From NCBI GenBank assembly GCA_013298245.1, contig JAAFHD010000036.1, forward strand, positions 1 to 15,221: DNA of 15,221 bases, written 5' to 3'. Each line of letters begins with the position of its first letter. Within the stretch, counting starts at the first letter, position 1. Position numbers and translations under genes: made by a program. This document shows positions 2,942-11,511 of this stretch, in pieces. The notes under the pieces are model-generated. The model ran no database searches. It was not told the origin of the DNA and was given only the letters and a program-made list of their open reading frames with translations. The DNA is from Alphaproteobacteria bacterium. Its GTDB lineage: Bacteria; Pseudomonadota; Alphaproteobacteria; Acetobacterales; Acetobacteraceae.

Positions 2942-2948
2942 AAGGAGG
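2942..2948 (+). promoter_or_regulatory. Strong Shine-Dalgarno for dienelactone hydrolase
   Basis: AAGGAGG lies five bases before the ATG at 2954. It decides the start against the longer open frame that begins far upstream, which would run antisense through the DUF3047 gene. Confidence 0.85.
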
Positions 2949-2953
2949 ACGCC

Positions 2954-3667
2954 ATGGCGGAGATCAGCATCAAGGCGACGGATGGTGCGGGCGCGTTCAG
3001 CGCCTATGTCGCGGAACCCAAGGGCAAGCCTGTCGGCGCAGTCGTGATGATCCAGGAAATCTTCGGCGTGAACCGCACCATGCGCGCGCTGTCGGACTGG
3101 GTCGCGGCGATGGGGTTCATCGCGATTTCGCCTGACCTGTTCTGGCGGCAGAAGCCGGGCGTGGAGCTGGACCCGGATGGCGGGCAGACGCAATGGGAAG
3201 CGGCCTTCGGCTACATGAAGGGCATGGACCAGGCGAAGGCGGTGGAGGATTTGAAGGCCACCATCGCCGCGGCACGCGCCCTGCCCGGCTGCAATGGCAA
3301 GGTCGGCACCATGGGCTACTGCCTGGGCGGGCGGCTGGCCTTCATAATGGCGACGCAGTCGGATGCCCAAGGGGGCGCTGATTGCAACATCAGCTATTAC
3401 GGCGTGGGGCTGGAGGGGTTGGTCGCGGATGCGGCGAAGATCACCGCGCCCGCGCTGGTGCACATCGCCGCCAAGGACAAGTTCGTGCCGCCCGAGGCGC
3501 AGGCCGCGATCAGCGCCGGCCTGGCCGGGCACGCGATGGCCAGCGTGATGATCCACGCCGATGTGGACCACGCCTTCGCGCGGCTTGGGGCGCATAGTTA
3601 CGACGCGCGGGCCGCGACCATCGCCAATGGGCGCAGCGCGGAAATGCTGGTGCGCTGCCTCGGTTGA
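2954..3667 (+). CDS. Dienelactone hydrolase family protein
   Basis: A 237-residue alpha/beta hydrolase of the dienelactone hydrolase family (ClcD-type), cytoplasmic, acting on lactone or ester bonds such as those in chlorocatechol breakdown. The catalytic set is visible: nucleophile elbow GYCLGG with Cys123, Asp175 in AAKDKFVP, His206 in DVDHAF, and the conserved Glu35 of QEIFG that primes the cysteine in the family. Length and residue spacing match characterised members (ClcD uses Cys123, Asp171 and His202). The start is fixed by a strong Shine-Dalgarno. No other aromatic ring-degradation gene is next to it, so the real substrate may be another ester or lactone. The next gene on the strand begins 50 bases later, behind a strong hairpin. 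Confidence 0.93.
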   Translation: MAEISIKATDGAGAFSAYVAEPKGKPVGAVVMIQEIFGVNRTMRALSDWVAAMGFIAISPDLFWRQKPGVELDPDGGQTQWEAAFGYMKGMDQAKAVEDLKATIAAARALPGCNGKVGTMGYCLGGRLAFIMATQSDAQGGADCNISYYGVGLEGLVADAAKITAPALVHIAAKDKFVPPEAQAAISAGLAGHAMASVMIHADVDHAFARLGAHSYDARAATIANGRSAEMLVRCLG

Positions 3668-3689
3668 CGCTCCCGGGGGGGCAGCGGAA

Positions 3690-3715
3690 GCTTCCTCCAT
3701 AACAATGGAGGAAGC
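3690..3715 (+). promoter_or_regulatory. Perfect 11-bp hairpin enclosing the tctC-like gene's ribosome binding site
   Basis: Arm GCTTCCTCCAT (3690-3700) pairs without mismatch to ATGGAGGAAGC (3705-3715) across the loop AACA. The right arm contains the Shine-Dalgarno GGAGGA (3707-3712) for the ATG at 3718, and the left arm carries the complementary TCCTCC. Folded, the RNA would hide the ribosome binding site. It could control translation of the binding-protein gene, or act as an attenuator or weak terminator after the hydrolase gene; there is no T-run after it. The pairing is seen; the role is inferred. Confidence 0.6.
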
Positions 3716-3717
3716 CC

Positions 3718-4680
3718 ATGTTCCATCGTCGCACCATGCTGGCCTTGCCGCTGCTGGCCACGCCCGCCCTCGCCCAGGCCTGGCCTGAACGCCAGGTGAC
3801 CATCGTGGTGCCCTGGGCGCCCGGCGGCAGCACGGATTTCCTGGCCCGCCTGGTCGCGCAGCGGCTGACGGAATCGCTGGGCCAGCCCTTCGTGGTGGAC
3901 AACCGGCCGGGCGGCTCGGGCACGGTGGGGCATCTTTCGGTGGCGCGCGCGCGGCCCGATGGGCTGACGCTGCTGGTGGGTGCGAACGGCACCTACAGCA
4001 TGGCGCCACACATGATGGACCTGCCCTATGACAACAACACCGCCTTCGCGCCGGTGGGCGTGCTGGGGCGCAGCCCGATCTTCTTCTGCGCCAATCCGCG
4101 CAGCGGCATTGCGGGCATGTCGGCGCTGATCGACCAGGCGCGGGCGCGGCCCGGGCAGGTGGCTTATGCGTCCTCGGGCGTGGGTTCCTCGGCGCATCTG
4201 GCGGCCGAGTTGTTCGCGATCATGGCGGGCGTGGAATTGCTGCATGTGCCCTATCGCGGCGGCGGGCCGGCCGCGCAGGCGTTGATCGCAGGCGAGATCG
4301 CCTTCGGGCCCACCGATGCGCCGACCGCGCTGCCGCTGATGCGCGCGGGCAGCGTGACGGCGTTGGGCGTGGGCAATGCGACCCGCAGCGCGCAGGCCGC
4401 GGATGTGCCCACGATTGCCGAGCAGCACGCCTCGCTCGCCGGTTTTGAATGCGCCTCCGAATTCGCGATGCTGGCGCCCGCGGGCACGCCCGCGCCGATC
4501 ATCGCGCGGCTGTCGGAGCATGTGCGCGCGGCGATGGCGCACCCCACGCTGCTGGCGCGGCTGACCGAGGGCGGCATGGAGGCCACACCGGGCACGCCCG
4601 AGCAATGGCCCGCCTATCTGGCGCGCGAGAACGAGAAATGGGGCCGGGTGATCCGCGCGCGGGGCATTCGCGCGGGCTGA
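3718..4680 (+). CDS. Bug/TctC-family periplasmic substrate-binding protein
   Basis: The 320-residue protein is a tripartite tricarboxylate transporter-type binding protein (Bug family), exported to the periplasm to bind small carboxylates. Residues 1-21 form a signal peptide with twin arginines (FHRRT) and a cleavage site near AQA-WPER. Family marks follow: ITIVVPWAP-like strand with the PGGSTD ligand loop (35-40), DNRPGGSGTVG, the YASSGVGSSAHLA helix, HVPYRGGGPA, and a C-terminal PAYLARENEKWGRVI helix. The start ATG follows GGAGG by six bases. TctA and TctB membrane partners are absent here, which is usual for the many orphan Bug proteins of Acetobacteraceae and Burkholderiales. Its ligand is unknown. 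The stop is one base from the stop of the converging GNAT gene. Confidence 0.93.
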   Translation: MFHRRTMLALPLLATPALAQAWPERQVTIVVPWAPGGSTDFLARLVAQRLTESLGQPFVVDNRPGGSGTVGHLSVARARPDGLTLLVGANGTYSMAPHMMDLPYDNNTAFAPVGVLGRSPIFFCANPRSGIAGMSALIDQARARPGQVAYASSGVGSSAHLAAELFAIMAGVELLHVPYRGGGPAAQALIAGEIAFGPTDAPTALPLMRAGSVTALGVGNATRSAQAADVPTIAEQHASLAGFECASEFAMLAPAGTPAPIIARLSEHVRAAMAHPTLLARLTEGGMEATPGTPEQWPAYLARENEKWGRVIRARGIRAG

Positions 4681-4681
4681 A

Positions 4682-5713
4682 TCACGACGCCTCGATGCTG
4701 AAGAGCAGGTGCTCGTGCATCGGGTGTTCGGGGCCGATGCGCGGGTGGCCGAAGCGGCCGGCGGGGTGCAGGCCGAGGCGGTGCATCACGGCCTGGCTGG
4801 GCGCATTGGCGGGGATGGTGAAGGCCACGATGCGCGGCAAGCGCAGCACGTCGAAGGCATGGCGCAGCGCGAGGCGCGCGGCCTGCGTGGCCAGGCCACG
4901 GCGCTGAAAACCAGGCCGGATCCGCCAGCCGATTTCAACCGCCGGCGTGAAGGGCGCGGACCAGGAAATATGCATCAGGCCGACCACGCCGATGCAGGGC
5001 GCATCGGGCAAGTCCACCGCGCAGAAGCCGAAGCCGTGCGTGGCGTGATGCGCCATCAGGCGGTCCACCCAGGCGTCTGATTCGGCGCGCGTCATGGGTG
5101 CAGGGAAGTGGCGCATCACCGCGGGGTCGGTGTTCATGGCGGCGATGCTGGGCTTGTCGGCATCGGTGATGGGGCGCAGCGCGAGGCCGGGGGCTGGCAC
5201 CTGCATGCCCAGGCGCAGCAACGGCGCGGCGTCGGGCCAGGTGATGTCCTGGTAGCGGATGGGGACGCCGAACATGGTGGTGTCGTATGGCGCGCCGGGG
5301 GTGGCGCCGTGGCGCTGGTAGAAGCGTAGCGCGCCGGTATTGCCCTCGATGATGGTGAGCCGTGCGCCGCGCGCGCCCATAGCGGCGAGGCAGGCCAGCG
5401 CGTCGCCGATCAGTCGCGCGCCGATGCCCTGGCCGCGCGCGCCGGGCATCATGTGCAGGCTGTCGATATAGGCGGCGCCGTCGCGCAGCCAGACGGAGAT
5501 GAGGCCAAGCGCGCGGCCGGCGTCTTCCGCCAGCAGCACCACGCCGGGTGGTGTTTCGGCCAGCACCTGGTCCCAGTTCGCACGACATAGCGCGGGGTAT
5601 TGGTCGCGCAGGAAATCGGCGGGCAGCAGGTCAGCATAAGCATCCTGCCAGGATGCGACGCGGATCGCGTTCAGTGTCGCGGCGTCCGCCGGGGTTGCGT
5701 GGCGTATGCGCAT
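4682..5713 (-). CDS. Tandem GNAT protein (two acetyltransferase domains in one chain)
   Basis: A single 343-residue open frame carries two different GNAT N-acetyltransferase domains, which move acetyl from acetyl-CoA to an amine. Domain one (about 2-150) is of the ordinary Acetyltransf_1 kind, with the acetyl-CoA loop ARGQGIGARL (92-101) and the NTGALRFYQRHG end. Domain two (about 175-340) is of the RimJ-like Acetyltransf_3 kind, starting LALRPITDAD, with EIGWRIRP, the loop QRRGLATQA (270-278) and the NAPSQAVMHRLGL end. A linker of about 25 residues joins them. The ATG at 5713 begins the canonical MRIRHATPAD; the frame stays open far upstream but that part is antisense to the CoA-transferase gene. 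Both cofactor loops look intact. Substrates are unknown. It is divergent from the seven-gene run. Confidence 0.88.
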   Translation of the reverse strand: MRIRHATPADAATLNAIRVASWQDAYADLLPADFLRDQYPALCRANWDQVLAETPPGVVLLAEDAGRALGLISVWLRDGAAYIDSLHMMPGARGQGIGARLIGDALACLAAMGARGARLTIIEGNTGALRFYQRHGATPGAPYDTTMFGVPIRYQDITWPDAAPLLRLGMQVPAPGLALRPITDADKPSIAAMNTDPAVMRHFPAPMTRAESDAWVDRLMAHHATHGFGFCAVDLPDAPCIGVVGLMHISWSAPFTPAVEIGWRIRPGFQRRGLATQAARLALRHAFDVLRLPRIVAFTIPANAPSQAVMHRLGLHPAGRFGHPRIGPEHPMHEHLLFSIEAS

Positions 5714-5770
5714 GCGCGGGCTATGGCGCGGCGGCGGGCGGGGGTAAAGTGGCGCTTGGAGGAACTGCCG
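5714..5770. promoter_or_regulatory. 57-base divergent region before the seven-gene run
   Basis: This short gap must hold the start signals for the plus-strand run unless transcription begins inside the GNAT gene. A perfect palindrome GCGCATGCGC (5708-5717) overlaps the GNAT start codon and could be an operator, though such GC palindromes arise easily here. GGAGG at 5758-5762 is a good ribosome binding site eight bases before the ATG at 5771. I see no convincing -35/-10 pair; TAAAGT at 5745-5750 is the only weak -10-like hexamer. Confidence 0.35.
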
Positions 5771-6589
5771 ATGACACCGATGAGCCTCGATGCGATGGCC
5801 GCCAGCGTGCCCGATGGCGCGTTGATCGCGATGCCGCCGGACAATTCGCTGCCGTCGGTGGCACTGGCGAAGGCGCTGATCAGGCGCGGGGTGCGGGGCC
5901 TGCGGCTGCTGGGCGTGCCGGTGGGTGGGTTCGCGGCGGATATCCTGATCGGCGCGGGCTGTGTCGTGGAGGTGGAGACGAGTGCGGTGTCGCTGGGCGA
6001 GGCGGGGTTTGCGCCACGGTTTTCGGCGGCGATCCGCGCGGGGTCCATTGTGATGCGCGACTGCACCTGCCCGGCCGTGCACACCATGCTGCAGGCCGCC
6101 GAGAAGGGCGTGCCGTTCATGCCGCTGCGCGGGTTGATCGGCTCGGACATCCTGGCGCATCGGCCGGATTGGAAGGTGGTGCCGAACCCCTATGGCGAGC
6201 CAGGCGATGACATTGTGCTGCTGCCCGCGATCAGCCCGGATGTGGCGGCGTTTCATGCTGTGATGGCCGATGAGGCCGGCAATGTGTGGGTGGGGCGCAG
6301 GCGCGAATGCGCGACGCTCGCGCATGCATCCAAGCGCGCGCTGGTGACGGTGGAACGCGTGGTGCCGGGCAATTTCCTGGAAGACGAAAACCTGGCGAGT
6401 GGCGCGATCAGCGCGACCTATATCGAGGCGGTCGCGATCGCGACGCGGGGCGCGCGGCCGGCGGCGCTGCTGGATGAATATGGGTTCGATGCGGCCTATG
6501 TGGCCGAGTATGCGCGGATGGCGCGCAGTGAGGCGGGCTTCCAGGAATGGGTGGCGCGCGAGGTGTTCTCGCAGGCCGTCGCGGCATGA
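5771..6589 (+). CDS. Class I CoA-transferase-like alpha subunit (GctA/IpdA-like)
   Basis: The 272-residue protein matches the alpha subunit of class I CoA-transferases such as glutaconate CoA-transferase, which move CoA between carboxylic acids; relatives such as mycobacterial IpdAB use the fold to open rings instead. Visible marks: VPDGALIAMPPDNSLPSVAL, the LLGVPVGG strand, SLGEAGFAPRF (about 74-84), GVPFMPLRGLIGSDI (about 113-127), PNPYGEP, and ADEAGNVWVGRRRE, where the family has a GN/GD turn. Length is near normal. The ATG follows GGAGG by eight bases. It opens the run and overlaps the beta-subunit gene by four bases (ATGA). Family placement is clear; whether it acts as transferase, hydrolase or lyase is not settled because the beta partner lacks the usual glutamate. 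Confidence 0.87.
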   Translation: MTPMSLDAMAASVPDGALIAMPPDNSLPSVALAKALIRRGVRGLRLLGVPVGGFAADILIGAGCVVEVETSAVSLGEAGFAPRFSAAIRAGSIVMRDCTCPAVHTMLQAAEKGVPFMPLRGLIGSDILAHRPDWKVVPNPYGEPGDDIVLLPAISPDVAAFHAVMADEAGNVWVGRRRECATLAHASKRALVTVERVVPGNFLEDENLASGAISATYIEAVAIATRGARPAALLDEYGFDAAYVAEYARMARSEAGFQEWVAREVFSQAVAA

Positions 6590-7335
6590 GTTTCGTGTTG
6601 GAAGAGTTGCTGGCGGTGACGATTGCGCGGTTGATCCGCGACCCGGCAGCGCCGCCGGCGCGGCATATCGCGGTGGGTGCGGCATCGCCCATCCCGGCGG
6701 CCGCGTGTTGGCTGGTGGCCAAGCAGGGCGCGCCCGTGCGGCTGTCCTTGCTGCATAAGCGCAGCGGCAATCCCTTCACCGAGGGCACGCGCGAGTTGTT
6801 CGACCTGACGGGCCAGGGGCGGATTGACCTGTTCTTCTTGGGCGGCGGCGAAATTGATGGCGCCGCGAATTTGAACCTGATCGGCACCGGCGAATGGCCA
6901 GGCACCGGCGTGCGCTTCCCCGGCAGTTTCGGCAGTGCGTTCATGTACATGATGACCAACCGCACCATCCTGTTCCGCGAGGAGCATTCACCGCGCGTGT
7001 TGGTGGACCGCGTGGCGCATATCTCGGCGCCGGGCGTTTCTGCGCCGGGCGTGTTCCGGCGCGGGCATGCGCAGGCGTTGGTGACGGGGCGGTGTGTGTT
7101 TCGCTTCCATCCTGAGCGGGCGCGGTTTTCGCTGGAGAGCCTGCATCCGGGCGAAAGCGTGGATGCCATCCGCGCCGCGACCGGCTTTGATTTCGACGCC
7201 GCCGACGACGTGCCGCAAACCACCGCGCCAACCGACGCTGAACTGGCGCTGCTGCGCGGCGTGGTGTGCGACGAGATGCGCGAAACCTATCCCGAATTCT
7301 GTGCCCGCGTGTTCAACAGAAAGTCCGCCGCATGA
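6586..7335 (+). CDS. Class I CoA-transferase-like beta subunit, catalytic Glu apparently missing
   Basis: The 249-residue partner of the preceding subunit. The beta fold shows HIAVGAASPIPAAAC, FFLGGGEIDGAANLN (about 83-97), FPGSFGSAFMYM and a hydrophobic-basic strand ending TNRTILF. In active class I CoA-transferases the glutamate that forms the thioester sits at an (I/F)xExG-like turn, near residue 54 in glutaconate CoA-transferase. Here the matching stretch reads LSLLHKRSGNP (53-63), with Lys58 and Arg59 where Glu is expected and no acidic residue until Glu66. That suggests it is not a standard transferase; IpdAB, which from memory also lacks this Glu, is a precedent. The alignment was made by eye. 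The ATG at 6586 overlaps the upstream stop by four bases, so translation is probably coupled. Confidence 0.82.
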   Translation: MSFVLEELLAVTIARLIRDPAAPPARHIAVGAASPIPAAACWLVAKQGAPVRLSLLHKRSGNPFTEGTRELFDLTGQGRIDLFFLGGGEIDGAANLNLIGTGEWPGTGVRFPGSFGSAFMYMMTNRTILFREEHSPRVLVDRVAHISAPGVSAPGVFRRGHAQALVTGRCVFRFHPERARFSLESLHPGESVDAIRAATGFDFDAADDVPQTTAPTDAELALLRGVVCDEMRETYPEFCARVFNRKSAA

Positions 7336-8567
7336 CCGACGCCATCCCCATGCTCGAAGGCAAGGGCCTCGCCAAATCCGCAGGCGCCCTGGCGGGCCTC
7401 AAGGTCATCGACCTGACGCGCGTCCTGGGCGGCCCTTACTGCACCATGATCCTCTCGGATCACGGCGCCGAGGTCATCAAGCTGGAACCGCCGCAGGGCG
7501 ACGAAGTGCGCGACTGGGGCCCCCCGTTCCACGAGGGCGATGCCAGCTACTACATCGGCGTCAACCGCAACAAGAAATCCGTGGGCCTCGACCTCGGCAA
7601 GCCGGAAGGCCGCCAGGTGCTGATGCGCCTGCTGGAAGACGCCGATGTACTGGTCGAAAACTTCAAGCCAGGCAGCATGGAAAAATGGGGCCTGGGCTAT
7701 GAGGACGTGCTGGCCAAACGCTTCCCCCGCCTGATCCATTGCCGCGTCTCCGGCTTCGGCGCGACCGGCCCTTATGGCGGCGCGCCGGGCTATGACGCGA
7801 TCGTGCAGGCGGTGGTGGGGCTGATGTCCACCAACGGCACCGCGACCTCCGGCCCCACGCGGCTTGGCACGCCGATGGTCGATATCGGCACCGGCCTTTA
7901 CTCCGCCATCGCCATCCTGATGGCGGTGCATGAACGCACCACCTCAGGCCTTGGCCAATACCTGGACATGACGCTGCACGACTGCGGCATGGCGCTGATG
8001 CACCCGCATGCCGCGAACCATCTGCTGAACGGCAAGCGCCCGGTGGCCACCGGCAATCCGCATCCCAACCTGGCGCCCTATTCCACCTTCCGCACGCGCA
8101 CCTGCGACATCTTCATGGGTGTGGGCATTGACGGCGCCTTCCGCAAGCTGTGCGAATTCCTGGGCATGCCGGAAGTCGCCGCCGACGCACGCTTCGCCAC
8201 CAACGGCGCGCGCGTGGTCAACCGCGAAGCACTGACCGAATTGCTCGACGCACGCTTCGCCGATGAAGACGGCTTCGAGCTCTGCCCGCGCATGCTGGCC
8301 GCAGGCCTGCCCGCCGGGCCGGTCACGCATGTCGACCAGGCGCTCGCCGCCCCCCACACCGCGCACCGCGAAATGGTGACGGAACTGGGCTGGTTCCGCG
8401 GCCTTGGCACGCCCATCAAGATGTCGCGCACGCCTGGCGGCACGCGGCGCGAACCGCCGCGCTTCGGGCAGGACACCGCGGCGGTGCTGGCCCAGCACGG
8501 CTTCACGACCGACGAGATTCAGAAGCTGCGCGACGGCGGCGTGGTGATGGAAGCGCGCCGAAAATGA
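7332..8567 (+). CDS. CaiB/BaiF family class III CoA-transferase
   Basis: A 411-residue class III CoA-transferase, cytoplasmic, that moves CoA between acyl-CoA and a free acid through an aspartyl thioester. After a short N-terminal tail the core starts ALAGLKVIDLTRVLGGPYC, then GAEVIKLEPPQGDEVRDWG, NRNKKSVGLDL, VLVENFKPG and CRVSGFGATGPYGGAPGYD. The catalytic aspartate is Asp184 in GTPMVDIGTGLYSA, in the position of the family's active-site Asp. Length and motif order are standard, so activity is likely. The start is the ATG of an ATGA overlap with the beta-subunit stop; there is only weak Shine-Dalgarno-like sequence, consistent with coupled translation. From here on, codons end more often in C than in the two preceding genes. 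The substrate acid is unknown. Confidence 0.95.
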   Translation: MTDAIPMLEGKGLAKSAGALAGLKVIDLTRVLGGPYCTMILSDHGAEVIKLEPPQGDEVRDWGPPFHEGDASYYIGVNRNKKSVGLDLGKPEGRQVLMRLLEDADVLVENFKPGSMEKWGLGYEDVLAKRFPRLIHCRVSGFGATGPYGGAPGYDAIVQAVVGLMSTNGTATSGPTRLGTPMVDIGTGLYSAIAILMAVHERTTSGLGQYLDMTLHDCGMALMHPHAANHLLNGKRPVATGNPHPNLAPYSTFRTRTCDIFMGVGIDGAFRKLCEFLGMPEVAADARFATNGARVVNREALTELLDARFADEDGFELCPRMLAAGLPAGPVTHVDQALAAPHTAHREMVTELGWFRGLGTPIKMSRTPGGTRREPPRFGQDTAAVLAQHGFTTDEIQKLRDGGVVMEARRK

Positions 8568-9004
8568 TCCGCCCCGCCCTCCCCTCGGACTGGCCGCAAT
8601 GGCTGCCGCTGTGGGAGGGCTACAACGCCTTCTACGGCCGCCCGGCCTTCGACCCCGCGATCACGCGCGCCACCTGGGCCGGCTTCCACGACCCGGCCGA
8701 ACCGATGCACGCGCTGGTCTTCGAACAGGGCGGCGCGTTGCTGGGCCTGGCGCACGCCATCTTCCACCGCAGCACCACGCAGCCCACGCCGAACTGCTAC
8801 CTGCAGGACCTGTTCACGCTGCAAGCCGCACGCGGCCAGGGCATCGGCCGCGCGCTGATGCACGCAGTGTTCGACCTGGCGCGCGCGGCCGGCAGCCGCC
8901 GCGTCTATTGGCAGACGCACCAGGCCAACCCCGGGCGTGCATTATACGACCGGATGGGCGAGCATCGCGGCTCCATCGTCTATGTGAAGGACCTCCCGGC
9001 GTGA
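8564..9004 (+). CDS. GNAT family N-acetyltransferase
   Basis: A compact 146-residue single-domain acetyltransferase. It starts IRPALPSDWPQWLPLWEGY, has a central strand with CYLQDLFTL, and carries the acetyl-CoA loop ARGQGIGRAL (89-98), followed by VYWQTHQANPGRALYDRMG, which is the usual C-terminal strand and helix. It should acetylate a small amine or a protein in the cytoplasm; the substrate cannot be predicted. The ATG at 8564 forms a four-base ATGA overlap with the CaiB gene, and its own stop forms a GTGA overlap with the RidA gene. It is not similar in detail to the tandem GNAT gene across the divergent promoter region. Confidence 0.92.
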   Translation: MIRPALPSDWPQWLPLWEGYNAFYGRPAFDPAITRATWAGFHDPAEPMHALVFEQGGALLGLAHAIFHRSTTQPTPNCYLQDLFTLQAARGQGIGRALMHAVFDLARAAGSRRVYWQTHQANPGRALYDRMGEHRGSIVYVKDLPA

Positions 9005-9375
9005 TCGAATTCCTCCACCCGCCAGAGCCCGGATCGCCCCGCCCCTTCAGCCGCGTCGCCAAGGCCGCGGGGCTGGTTTTCGTCTCGGGCCATTCCGCAC
9101 CGCATGACCCCTCGCGCGGCATCCATCGCGGCGAAACAGCAGCCGAGGAAACGCGCAACGCGCTGCACCACATCGCGTCGTTGCTCACCGAAGCCGGCTC
9201 GTCCCTCGACCGCGTCGTGCAGGTGACGATGCTCATCACCGATCGCGCCGACTACGCCGAATGCAACGCCGAATATGTGCGGCACTTCCCCGCCGGCCTG
9301 CCCGCGCGCCACACCGCGCTGTTCGGCGTGCCGACCGAGGCGCGGGTGGGCTTCGCGTGCACGGCACTCGCATGA
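9001..9375 (+). CDS. RidA (YjgF/YER057c/UK114) family protein
   Basis: A 124-residue RidA-fold protein. RidA enzymes hydrolyse reactive enamines and imines, such as 2-aminoacrylate, to ketoacids, usually as trimers. Visible: PFSRVAKAAGLVFVSGHSA with the pocket serine, ETAAEETRNALHHIASLL, AGSSLDRVVQVTMLI, ECNAEYVRHF with the asparagine, and PARHTA with Arg103, the equivalent of the carboxylate-binding Arg105. The usual C-terminal VEIEAIA is replaced by VGFACTALA, so the acidic residue equivalent to Glu120 is missing, and the tyrosine near the N-terminus is Phe. It may therefore bind a carboxylate but act differently from RidA proper. The start is GTG in a GTGA overlap with the GNAT stop; the only frame that matches the family begins here. 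Confidence 0.88.
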   Translation: MIEFLHPPEPGSPRPFSRVAKAAGLVFVSGHSAPHDPSRGIHRGETAAEETRNALHHIASLLTEAGSSLDRVVQVTMLITDRADYAECNAEYVRHFPAGLPARHTALFGVPTEARVGFACTALA

Positions 9376-9926
9376 CCACCTGGCTCGCCCAGCGCTGGGT
9401 CACGGGCGCGCTGTTCATGGCCGCCGCCCTGCTGGCCCTGGTGCCTTTGCTGCGCGAAGCCTGGCCGGCCTGGGTCGTGCTGATCTTCCTGCACTCGCCC
9501 GCCTACATGCTGCACCAGGTGGAGGAACACAGCGCCGACCGCTTCCGCCAATTCGTGAACAACGTGATGTTCCATGGCCGCGATGCACTGACCACGCCCG
9601 ATGTGCTGGTCATCAACCTGCCGCTGGTCTGGGGCACCAACCTCTTCGCGCTGTATGCCGGGCTGTGGTGGGGGCCGGGCTGGGCGCTGGTGGCGCCGTG
9701 GGTGGTGCTGGTCAACGGCATCACGCATATCGCGGCCACCGTGAAGCTGCGGCGGGCCAATCCTGGCGTGTACAGTTCCGTGCTGCTGTTCCTGCCGCTG
9801 GCGGTGATCACGCTCATGGTCGTGCCGGCGGGATTGGGTGCGCATGTCGCGGCCGTGGCGGCGGCACTTGTGCTGCATGCCGGGATTGTCGCCCTGGCCT
9901 TCTGGCGCGCAAGGCGCGCGACGTGA
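9372..9926 (+). CDS. HXXEE domain integral membrane protein
   Basis: A 184-residue membrane protein with about five or six hydrophobic segments (about 9-27, 31-47, 78-100, 102-123, 136-154, 158-177). At the end of the second segment it has HQVEEH (48-53), the HXXEE motif that names the family; a second histidine sits in NGITH (119). A His-Glu-Glu-His cluster at the membrane edge, plus later His119 and His169, would suit metal binding, which is inference. The family has no established function. The ATG at 9372 overlaps the RidA stop by four bases, and its stop overlaps the next gene's GTG by four. It is the only membrane protein in the run, so it could be a membrane enzyme or transporter-like component of the same pathway. 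Confidence 0.85.
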   Translation: MTTWLAQRWVTGALFMAAALLALVPLLREAWPAWVVLIFLHSPAYMLHQVEEHSADRFRQFVNNVMFHGRDALTTPDVLVINLPLVWGTNLFALYAGLWWGPGWALVAPWVVLVNGITHIAATVKLRRANPGVYSSVLLFLPLAVITLMVVPAGLGAHVAAVAAALVLHAGIVALAFWRARRAT

Positions 9927-10282
9927 TCAAGGGTGCCGCCACCATCTTCGCGGTGCGCGACATGGCGGCCGCCTTGGCCTTCTACCGCGACGGGCTGGGG
10001 TTCAAGGTCAGCTTCGAATGGGGCACGCCCACATCCTATGCCTGCCTGTGCCGCGATGATGTGGATTTGCACCTGGTCGCGGGTTCCGCACGCGCGCCGG
10101 GCCAGGGCGCCATCTGCCTTTTCGTGCGTGACGTGGATGCGCTGCACGCCGAATGGTCCGCGCGTGGCGTGGCGTTGCCGCAAGCGCCCGCCGACCGTGA
10201 CTACGGCATGCGCGACTTCATGCTGACCGACCCGGATGGCAATGAAATCAGCGCCGGCCAGGCAGTCGCGGGCGCGGCATAA
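9923..10282 (+). CDS. VOC superfamily (glyoxalase/bleomycin-resistance-like) protein
   Basis: A 119-residue single vicinal-oxygen-chelate protein. The first beta-alpha-beta module starts AATIFAVRDMAAALAFYRDGLGF and ends DDVDLHLV; the second is AICLFVRDVDALHAEW and ends FMLTDPDGNEIS. His50 and Glu108 sit where VOC enzymes place two metal ligands; the first-strand position that often holds His is not one here (TIFAV), so the site may be incomplete, as in bleomycin-binding relatives. Members may be dioxygenases, isomerases, lyases or simple binding proteins, so no reaction is claimed. The GTG start is set by a GTGA overlap with the HXXEE stop. It is the last gene of the run, and its TAA lies in the loop of a GC-rich hairpin. 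Confidence 0.88.
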   Translation: MIKGAATIFAVRDMAAALAFYRDGLGFKVSFEWGTPTSYACLCRDDVDLHLVAGSARAPGQGAICLFVRDVDALHAEWSARGVALPQAPADRDYGMRDFMLTDPDGNEISAGQAVAGAA

Positions 10283-10294
10283 AACCGCGCCCGC
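10268..10294 (+). terminator. GC-only hairpin at the end of the seven-gene run
   Basis: GCGGGCGCGG (10268-10277) pairs perfectly with CCGCGCCCGC (10285-10294). The seven-base loop CATAAAA contains the VOC gene's TAA stop. It lies between converging genes and could end transcription both ways; the right side is not followed by a T-run, so it may instead mainly protect the mRNA end. Confidence 0.55.
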
Positions 10295-10300
10295 CGCATA

Positions 10301-10519
10301 TCACCGCCGGCGCGAAGACGGCGCCGTCACCGCGCCGCCCACGGCACCCACCGCGCCGCCGACAACCGCACCCGTCGCCAGACTGCCGCCGGTCAAAGCC
10401 GCCGCGCCCGCACCGACACCGGCGCCGATCAGGCCGCCGCTGACAGCGCGTTCACCCGGGCGCTGGCCGCAGCCCGCCAGGCCAATCGCCAGTACACCGA
10501 CGAGAAGAATTGCACGCAT
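10301..10519 (-). CDS. Small glycine-zipper lipoprotein
   Basis: A 72-residue protein with a lipoprotein signal peptide: MRAILLVGVLAIG followed by the lipobox LAGC, so Cys17 would be lipidated and the mature protein anchored in a membrane facing the periplasm. The mature part is a glycine zipper (about residues 28-64, repeated GxxxG/GxxGG spacing as in GGLIGAGVGAG and GGAVGAVGG), ending in a basic SSRRR tail. Such small proteins resemble the Rickettsia 17-kDa antigen/OsmB-like glycine-zipper groups, thought to insert in or stabilise the envelope; that role is inference. The start at 10519 is set by a Shine-Dalgarno seven bases upstream; an in-frame codon at 10540 would wrongly place residues before the signal peptide. 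It converges on the VOC gene. Confidence 0.82.
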   Translation of the reverse strand: MRAILLVGVLAIGLAGCGQRPGERAVSGGLIGAGVGAGAAALTGGSLATGAVVGGAVGAVGGAVTAPSSRRR

Positions 10520-10526
10520 ATTGGTT

Positions 10527-10534
10527 CCTCCTTT
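10527..10534 (-). promoter_or_regulatory. Shine-Dalgarno deciding the lipoprotein start
   Basis: On the minus strand this reads AAAGGAGG, seven bases before the ATG at 10519. It rules out the longer frame that starts at 10540. Confidence 0.85.
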
Positions 10535-10546
10535 GAACACCTGAAC

Positions 10547-10567
10547 ATTCTACCCGGATTCGGGCAG
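10547..10567 (-). promoter_or_regulatory. Possible -10 box and small hairpin between oxidoreductase and lipoprotein genes
   Basis: On the minus strand TAGAAT (10547-10552) matches five of six -10 positions and sits 27 bases before the lipoprotein ATG, but no good -35 is seen 16-18 bases upstream. Just before and overlapping it, CTGCCCG and CGGGTAG (10550-10567) form a seven-pair stem with one G-U around AATC, which could be a weak terminator after the oxidoreductase gene. Both uses cannot be optimal at once. Confidence 0.3.
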
Positions 10568-10581
10568 CGATGTGGCGCCTG

Positions 10582-11511
10582 TTACGCAGTGGCGATCGCC
10601 GCCTCCACCCGCAACGCAACCGACAATGCGGCACGACCGGCGGCGCCATCCACCGCAGGCGGCTCGCCGCTGCGGACGGCGTGCAGGAAGGCGGCGTGTT
10701 GCGCCTCCAGGCTGTCATGGTCGGTCCAGCTGCGCAGGTCACGGCCCCAGCCGGGCATGTGTTCGGCGGGCTCGGCGCCGCCCGGGCGCAGCGCGGCCAA
10801 TTCACGCGCCAGGAAATCAACGCGCACTTCTCCGCCGTCACCCAGCAGTCGCAGGCGGCGTTCCATGGCCACCGCGACGCGGCTAGCGGTCAGTTCCGCC
10901 TGCATGCCATTGGCGAAGCGCAGTTGCGCCACCGCATAATCCGGGTGCGGTGACATCACGGCGCGGCCCACGGCGCGCACCTCCACCGGCTCCGCGCCCG
11001 CCAGGCTCAGCACCAGGTCGATGTCGTGGATCATCAGGTCCAGCACCACCGACACATCCAGGCTGCGCGGGCGGAAGGGTGCGACGCGCGTCGCCTGCAT
11101 GGCGCGGGGCGTGAAGCCCGCCAATTCCGCGCGCAGTGTGCGGATCGCGGCCGAATGGCGTTCGATATGCCCGACTTGCAGCACGCGGCCCTGCGCGGCT
11201 GCGATCAGGGCGTCGGCCTGTTCCAGCGTCGCGGCGATGGGTTTTTCCATGAACAGGTGCCGCCCGGCGGCCAGCACGCGCAGCCCGATATCCAGGTGAA
11301 ACCGCGTGGGTGCCGCCACCACCACCGCATCGGATGCCGCGATCAGCGAGTCGAGCGGCATGGCGGCGCAGCCCGCTTCACCCGCCACCTGCGCGGCCCG
11401 CGCGGCATCCGCATCATGCAAGCCGGACAGCGCGCCGATTCCGGCCAGTTTCAGCGCGTGAAACCGCCCGAAATGGCCCGCGCCGACGACGCCCACGCGC
11501 AAGGCTTGCAT
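10582..11511 (-). CDS. Gfo/Idh/MocA family NAD(P)-dependent oxidoreductase
   Basis: A 309-residue sugar-type dehydrogenase. The Rossmann start is RVGVVGAGHFGRFHA with the GxGxxG glycines at 10-15, the nucleotide domain ends in the MEKP signature (Glu89-Lys90-Pro91), followed by LQVGHIERHSAA, and the catalytic region has VLDLMIHDIDL with His162 and Asp163. The VGHIER stretch resembles GnnA-type UDP-GlcNAc 3-dehydrogenases, which help make amide-linked lipid A, but no gnnB or lpx gene is nearby, so that is only a suggestion. I chose the ATG at 11511 because GGAGAG (minus strand, 11516-11521) precedes it by four bases; a TTG at 11568 would add an unrelated tail. It is divergent from secDF across 82 bases and lies 62 bases before the lipoprotein gene on the same strand. 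Confidence 0.9.
   Translation of the reverse strand: MQALRVGVVGAGHFGRFHALKLAGIGALSGLHDADAARAAQVAGEAGCAAMPLDSLIAASDAVVVAAPTRFHLDIGLRVLAAGRHLFMEKPIAATLEQADALIAAAQGRVLQVGHIERHSAAIRTLRAELAGFTPRAMQATRVAPFRPRSLDVSVVLDLMIHDIDLVLSLAGAEPVEVRAVGRAVMSPHPDYAVAQLRFANGMQAELTASRVAVAMERRLRLLGDGGEVRVDFLARELAALRPGGAEPAEHMPGWGRDLRSWTDHDSLEAQHAAFLHAVRSGEPPAVDGAAGRAALSVALRVEAAIATA

Follow-up and report, generated by a model that had tools for sequence, protein, structure and literature searches.

The window analysed here, 15,221 nucleotides (nt) of contig JAAFHD010000036.1 in an incomplete Acetobacteraceae assembly (GCA_013298245.1; 523 contigs, 82.8% complete), carries at 5771-10282 a run of seven open reading frames (ORFs), here called ctA, ctB, caiB, gnat, ridA, hxxee, and voc. 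All seven are open and in frame, each is closed by a stop codon, and they are joined by six consecutive 4-nt junctions (ATGA at 6586, 7332, and 8564, GTGA at 9001, ATGA at 9372, and GTGA at 9923), exactly as a first-pass annotation had claimed; both the coordinates and the junction letters were checked. The family names which that annotation gave to the products are likewise backed by Pfam, where the best family of each exceeds its gathering score: CoA_trans twice, CoA_transf_3, Acetyltransf_1, Ribonuc_L-PSP (RidA), HXXEE, and Glyoxalase/VOC. The start positions derive from the sequence alone, and for ctA the gene caller favours 5780 over 5771, which leaves the overlap junctions unaffected. 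With slightly better than even confidence, we read the run as a conserved ctA-ctB-caiB unit to which four small genes were added within the lineage, the two-subunit protein CtAB being a Cys-type, Glu-less enzyme that cleaves C-C bonds in acyl-coenzyme A (CoA) thioesters and is fed by CaiB. The features are collected in Table 1.

Table 1. Positions of the seven genes and their junctions in the window (aa, amino acids; G labels are genomes of the genus)
Feature	Position	Strand	Remarks
ctA, alpha subunit, 272 aa	5771..6589	+	Glutaconate-CoA-transferase fold; invariant Cys100 in the column of IpdA Glu105
ctB, beta subunit, 249 aa	6586..7335	+	Shortened catalytic segment, no conserved Glu
caiB, class III CoA-transferase, 411 aa	7332..8567	+	PF02515 at 394.8 bits; PDB relatives; synteny
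gnat, GNAT acetyltransferase	8564..9004	+	After caiB also in G001 (61%); relative in G006 (65%) on a contig other than that of ctB
ridA, RidA-family protein	9001..9375	+	Follows caiB in G003 and G008 (89-93%) and lies downstream of it in G001 (70%)
hxxee, HXXEE membrane protein	9372..9926	+	Present in 1 of 9 genomes of the genus and 7 of 299 of the family, counting the source genome
voc, VOC/glyoxalase-fold protein	9923..10282	+	Present in 3 of 9 genomes of the genus, counting the source genome; follows ridA in G003 and G008
ctA/ctB overlap, ATGA	6586..6589	+	The conserved junction, 4 nt at 78 of 80 loci in Acetobacteraceae and at 25 of 40 elsewhere
ctB/caiB overlap, ATGA	7332..7335	+	4 nt in 47 of the 71 Acetobacteraceae loci having both genes and 4 of 20 elsewhere
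Junctions 8564, 9001, 9372, and 9923 around gnat and hxxee	8564..9926	+	Direct caiB/ridA and ridA/voc overlaps instead in G003 and G008

Catalytic residues and fold of CtA and CtB

Both subunits score above the gathering score of PF01144, and Foldseek matches both to 1poi. Conservation was read from an alignment of 139 rows (the window, 18 loci, 80 Acetobacteraceae, and 40 more) that is mostly Acetobacteraceae and in which several of the 18 loci are organisms also among the 80. Cys100 of ctA is Cys in 139 of 139 homologues, and the alignment around the site is ungapped against IpdA, where Glu105 occupies the column. All of 11 further loci likewise have Cys here; one of them (L240) lies in a genome already counted, two come from one genome, and two are only 29-31% identical. 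Elsewhere the column varies, with Glu in IpdA, Gln in GctA, Gly in AibA, and Asn, Glu, His, and His in the four readable of five other type I loci.

The beta subunit differs in the segment where class I enzymes carry their catalytic glutamate. Across the 139 rows no position from 48 to 63 of ctB is a conserved Glu, the register in the shortened loop being uncertain, and position 66 holds Glu in 85, Asp in 45, and other residues in 9. The catalytic segment of ctB is shorter than that of AibB, and in the AlphaFold2 model of ctB a strand at 52-55 stops where this segment is expected. The ctA model is better defined (mean predicted local distance difference test score, pLDDT, of 81.6) and places Cys100 at the opening of the helix that follows strand 94-97. 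Titles of related PDB entries name the E105A change in IpdA (6coj) and C56 variants of AibB. Foldseek ranks IpdB first among the matches of ctB, followed by AibB and GctB.

The first-pass annotation had called these proteins two CoA-transferase subunits. As a statement of fold and Pfam family the label is sound, but as a statement of function it is probably wrong, because ctB has no conserved Glu in the catalytic segment. Some of 120 listed ctA proteins carry public names of the same kind ('glutaconate CoA-transferase subunit A', 'CoA synthetase', or 'CoA transferase'), and such names would be misleading for many Alphaproteobacteria if our reading holds. The invariant Cys100 would then also offer a direct mutational handle.

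More divergent copies were seen at two loci. At L053 (genome G038, 3061-7993), a distant CtAB (32-36% identical) that keeps the Cys has a CaiB-type protein, a crotonase, and an AMP-forming ligase in the same run, and at L051 (genome G019, 2999-8521), a second CtAB copy (about 50% identical) lies between a molybdopterin oxidoreductase and a short-chain dehydrogenase/reductase plus a beta-keto acid cleavage enzyme.

Association of caiB with the ctA-ctB pair

CaiB is a full-length class III CoA-transferase, with positions 1-366 of the 366 in the PF02515 profile covered and the family III domain spanning the whole protein; its relatives in the PDB include 4ed9, 10uh, and 9br6. Asp184 is invariant in 16 of 16 rows and aligns with Asp in the relatives shown; the catalytic aspartate of the class is Asp169 in formyl-CoA transferase. 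No NCBIfam equivalog cut-off is reached (best 319.1 versus 750 bits), and the acid on which CaiB acts is therefore not named here.

That the first three genes belong together, as had been proposed, is borne out by the recurrence of ctA-ctB-caiB across Acetobacteraceae and other Alphaproteobacteria, an association uncorrected for phylogeny. Synteny was read from tblastn; gene calling on 40 loci, which gave wrong frames at some GC-rich loci, the window included, served only for picking neighbours. Among the best 80 GTDB loci of the Acetobacteraceae, picked by ctB and hence nearest relatives only, ctA is present in the stretch examined at all 80 and caiB at 71. Five of the nine loci without caiB (L064, L075, L085, L121, and L131) end at most about 1.1 kilobases (kb) downstream, and the other four (L080, L082, L091, and L105) run for 3 to 7 kb without it. 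At L091 and L105, ctA-ctB is followed not by caiB but by the gfo/secDF genes found beside the cluster in the window, which suggests that caiB was lost at one shared site. At several other loci, genes are inserted between ctAB and caiB, with caiB still downstream.

Across the class, a ctB profile matches 70 of 385 Alphaproteobacteria genomes at 251 bits or more, and other type I members score at most 128 bits. The next match, at 128 bits (G339:C49:29683-30423), comes in two adjacent pieces, either because the gene is split or frame-shifted or because of an error in assembly; it may be a split ctB member, in which case the count of 70 may be one too low. A caiB orthologue (E at most 1e-110, with up to four candidates per genome scored) occurs in 76 of the 385. 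The two share a genome in 43 cases and stand in tandem on one strand in 32, from many families, with at most 151 nt between the ctB and caiB matches in 29 of these 32. The co-occurrence gives a Fisher odds ratio of 13.6 (p 2e-18, phylogeny not corrected for), and the link between ctB and caiB is strong but not obligate. In a sample of 398 genomes from the phylum, 12 match at E at most 1e-40: the source genome, ten of the same class, and one outside it.

Taken with the missing glutamate and the nearest folds, the strict conservation of Cys100 leads us to propose a two-step scheme. CaiB would take CoA from a donor thioester and load it onto an organic acid, as its family suggests, and CtA and CtB would form a heteromer with the glutaconate-CoA-transferase fold that has dispensed with the catalytic beta glutamate. 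This CtAB complex, presumably acting after CaiB, most likely binds the acyl-CoA and breaks a C-C bond, either by hydrolysis as in IpdAB or by decarboxylation as in AibAB, and Cys100 would be its key residue in place of IpdA Glu105. The products of gnat, ridA, hxxee, and voc would stand outside the reaction, their genes having joined the core at ATGA or GTGA junctions in its own lineage.

Several observations weigh against this scheme. The model of ctB is of low confidence (mean pLDDT 70.1), the poorest stretches being 60-74, 98-116, and 139-159; the first of these, below 50, adjoins the catalytic segment. The best fold match of ctA is GctA, a true CoA-transferase, followed by AibA and then IpdA. 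A caiB orthologue is lacking in 27 of the 70 genomes with ctB and ctB in 33 of the 76 with caiB; when fully scored, 13 of 20 class genomes lacking caiB after ctB had no relative at 50% identity or above. Neighbours of the core elsewhere in the class also vary from locus to locus. At single loci these include an acyl-CoA dehydrogenase, molybdopterin enzymes, a crotonase, and a beta-keto acid cleavage enzyme, as well as transporters, an ATPase, and an exonuclease; they fit CoA-thioester catabolism in part and name no substrate. No constant catabolic neighbour was seen in other Alphaproteobacteria among the 20 proteins scanned, which are part of the neighbours and include the dienelactone-hydrolase-family protein of the window.

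The rank of GctA also bears on an alternative that we regard as unlikely but worth weighing, namely that CtAB acts as a thioesterase on acyl-CoA, or as an unusual CoA-transferase with Cys100 standing in for the beta glutamate, so that CaiB and CtAB load and unload CoA on the same acid. The CoA-transferase fold agrees with this, an invariant Cys could act as a nucleophile, and a Glu-to-Asp change in a class I enzyme yields a hydrolase according to the title of entry 9cq2 (CtfAB E46D). The two families that best match ctB, however, are the non-transferases IpdAB and AibAB, the title of 9cry describes CtfAB E46S as inactive, and PMC5380842 reports that the Glu-less IpdAB did not transfer CoA when tested with short-chain substrates.

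We find it less probable still that CtAB and CaiB act on different substrates and that their neighbourhood is historical, not functional. The occurrence of each gene without the other, together with the genes that intervene between them in several Acetobacteraceae, would be expected under such an arrangement, but the tandem in 32 of the 70 ctB genomes over many families, and the persistence of caiB downstream despite insertions, argue for a shared role.

Tail genes and the run of overlaps

The genes behind caiB follow a different pattern from the core. Eight of nine genomes of the genus, the source included, have ctB, the ninth (G004) being 69% complete. The order ctA-ctB-caiB-ridA-voc is found in G003 and G008, in the former split over two contigs, each with ctB or part of it. 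In G001 a reverse gene separates ctA-ctB from caiB-gnat, and another stands between gnat and ridA; in G005, G006, and G007 the stretch examined shows ctA-ctB-caiB but none of the tail genes, and in G002 the contig ends after caiB. Thus two of the eight other genomes have ridA and voc, one has gnat and ridA, and none has hxxee. Counted over whole genomes, ridA occurs at 70% or above in 4 of 9 and gnat at 61% or above in 3 of 9, in G006 away from the ctB contig.

The wider family gives the same picture. Matches to ridA occur at 4 of the 80 Acetobacteraceae loci, only that of L077 (70%) being close, downstream, and on the same strand; gnat occurs at one, again L077, which appears to be G001 a second time. 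Neither hxxee nor voc is found at any of the 80. HXXEE was considered as a pathway member and rejected, since the six other family genomes with an HXXEE gene show no match to ctA, ctB, or caiB near it in the stretch examined (1.5-kb flanks only in one case, and two contigs ending less than 1 kb away on one side). The RidA protein has a clear Ribonuc_L-PSP domain (62.9 bits against a cut-off of 27.3) and scores under the cut-offs of the three NCBIfam models matched. Nothing found here ties the RidA, HXXEE, and VOC genes functionally to the CoA genes, and the four tail genes are best regarded as lineage-specific passengers.

The junctions illustrate how such genes may come and go. In G008, ridA joins voc as CTCGC-ATGA-TCAAGG, and the two sides of hxxee in the window read CTCGC-ATGA-CCACC and GAC-GTGA-TCAAGG, the same flanks as in G008; gnat sits likewise between caiB and ridA. 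The junctions around gnat and hxxee thus show scar-free gain or loss. A gnat after caiB is also present in G001, the more distant genome as judged by caiB (84% versus 97%), which fits either loss in G003 and G008 or two gains. A gene bounded by 4-nt overlaps can therefore enter or leave with its neighbours still coupled, and because the ATGA and GTGA junctions can outlast such events, a passenger seems no less tightly coupled than a core gene. Caution is accordingly needed before a series of 4-nt overlaps is taken for a single pathway.

Such overlaps are also common in this genome. A sample of 20 of its 523 contigs (206,882 bases with 208 called genes) contains 130 pairs of same-strand neighbours, of which 39 share a 4-nt overlap, and no more than two such overlaps follow one another there; at the 80 Acetobacteraceae loci, the count is 179 of 636 pairs, with a longest run of three. 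At about 30% per pair, six in succession have an estimated chance of 0.3^6, or about 0.0007, per start point, and with some 2,300 same-strand pairs per genome about one run of six would be expected in each, assuming independence. The run is unusual and notable, not extraordinary. According to PMC6728339, overlapping gene pairs are common in prokaryotes, and strict coupling in translation was seen for 13 of the 14 pairs tested; from the sequence a single transcript with translational coupling across the seven genes is plausible. A scan of 5500-10700 found no promoter-like site and one terminator-like site, on the opposite strand and below the shuffle mean.

The first-pass annotation had joined all seven genes in one acyl-CoA/enamine pathway, in which RidA would clear an enamine or imine, HXXEE would provide a membrane step, and VOC a further conversion; despite the six overlaps, the coupling just described, and the ridA and voc genes that follow caiB through 4-nt overlaps in G003 and G008, we consider this very improbable, as the full set occurs at none of the 80 Acetobacteraceae loci, none of the 20 in a second locus set, and nowhere else among the loci examined, while hxxee occurs in one of the nine genus genomes and voc in three. 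The synteny search that annotation had proposed returned the complete order in the source genome only, with the tail genes absent or scattered in relatives, an outcome that it had itself named as speaking against a single pathway.

Further genes lie on either side of the run. The dienelactone-hydrolase-family protein at 2945-3667 was considered as a fourth core gene and rejected, a relative being present in the stretch at only 13 of the 80 loci; at L043 and L049 such a relative precedes ctA by 25 and 4 nt, respectively. A minus-strand ORF at 4682-5713 with two GNAT domains diverges from ctA across a gap of about 57 nt. Directly past voc, a 72-aa ORF with the look of a glycine-rich lipoprotein lies antisense on the minus strand (10301-10519), and L037 has a 69-aa call at the matching place.

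Comparison with known systems

Searches of the open-licence literature returned no paper combining a CoA-transferase, CaiB, and RidA in an operon, none on a CoA-transferase with CaiB in Roseomonas, and one listed for CaiB and a glutaconate CoA-transferase in a gene cluster. IpdAB (ScdL1L2), the COCHEA-CoA hydrolase of steroid ring catabolism, is like CtAB a two-subunit protein of the glutaconate-CoA-transferase fold, and its beta subunit is the closest in fold to ctB. The glutamate essential to type I CoA-transferases (Glu54 of the beta subunit in glutaconate CoA-transferase, GCT) is Gly57 in IpdAB according to PMC5380842, a loss that ctB shares, and the IpdAB reaction is described in PMC6678751 as a retro-Claisen hydrolysis. 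The two systems differ in the alpha subunit, Glu105 versus Cys100, and in sequence, with identity in the range of about 25% and IpdB-like proteins of the same class parted from ctB by a score gap. No steroid cluster is indicated by the families of the window or the neighbours scanned, a scan that included no search for ipdC, echA20, or similar genes.

AibAB, by entry titles the 3-methylglutaconyl-CoA decarboxylase, shares the fold and the absence of the beta glutamate, and the C56 variants in entry titles suggest that a Cys is important in it. That Cys lies in the beta subunit, whereas ctB has a shorter segment with no Cys among the six commonest residues per column at 48-63, and AibA has Gly where ctA has Cys100. 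The class I enzyme GctAB also shares the fold, but its catalytic beta glutamate is not conserved in ctB, and CaiB belongs with the class III CoA-transferases of the CaiB/BaiF, formyl-CoA transferase type. From these comparisons we tentatively suggest that CtAB could represent an enzyme type, found widely among Alphaproteobacteria, that has so far escaped characterisation. Having lost the beta glutamate, and with an invariant alpha-subunit Cys at the IpdA Glu site, it would receive its thioester from a class III CoA-transferase; it may thus be a third catalytic solution within this fold, beside those of IpdAB and AibAB.

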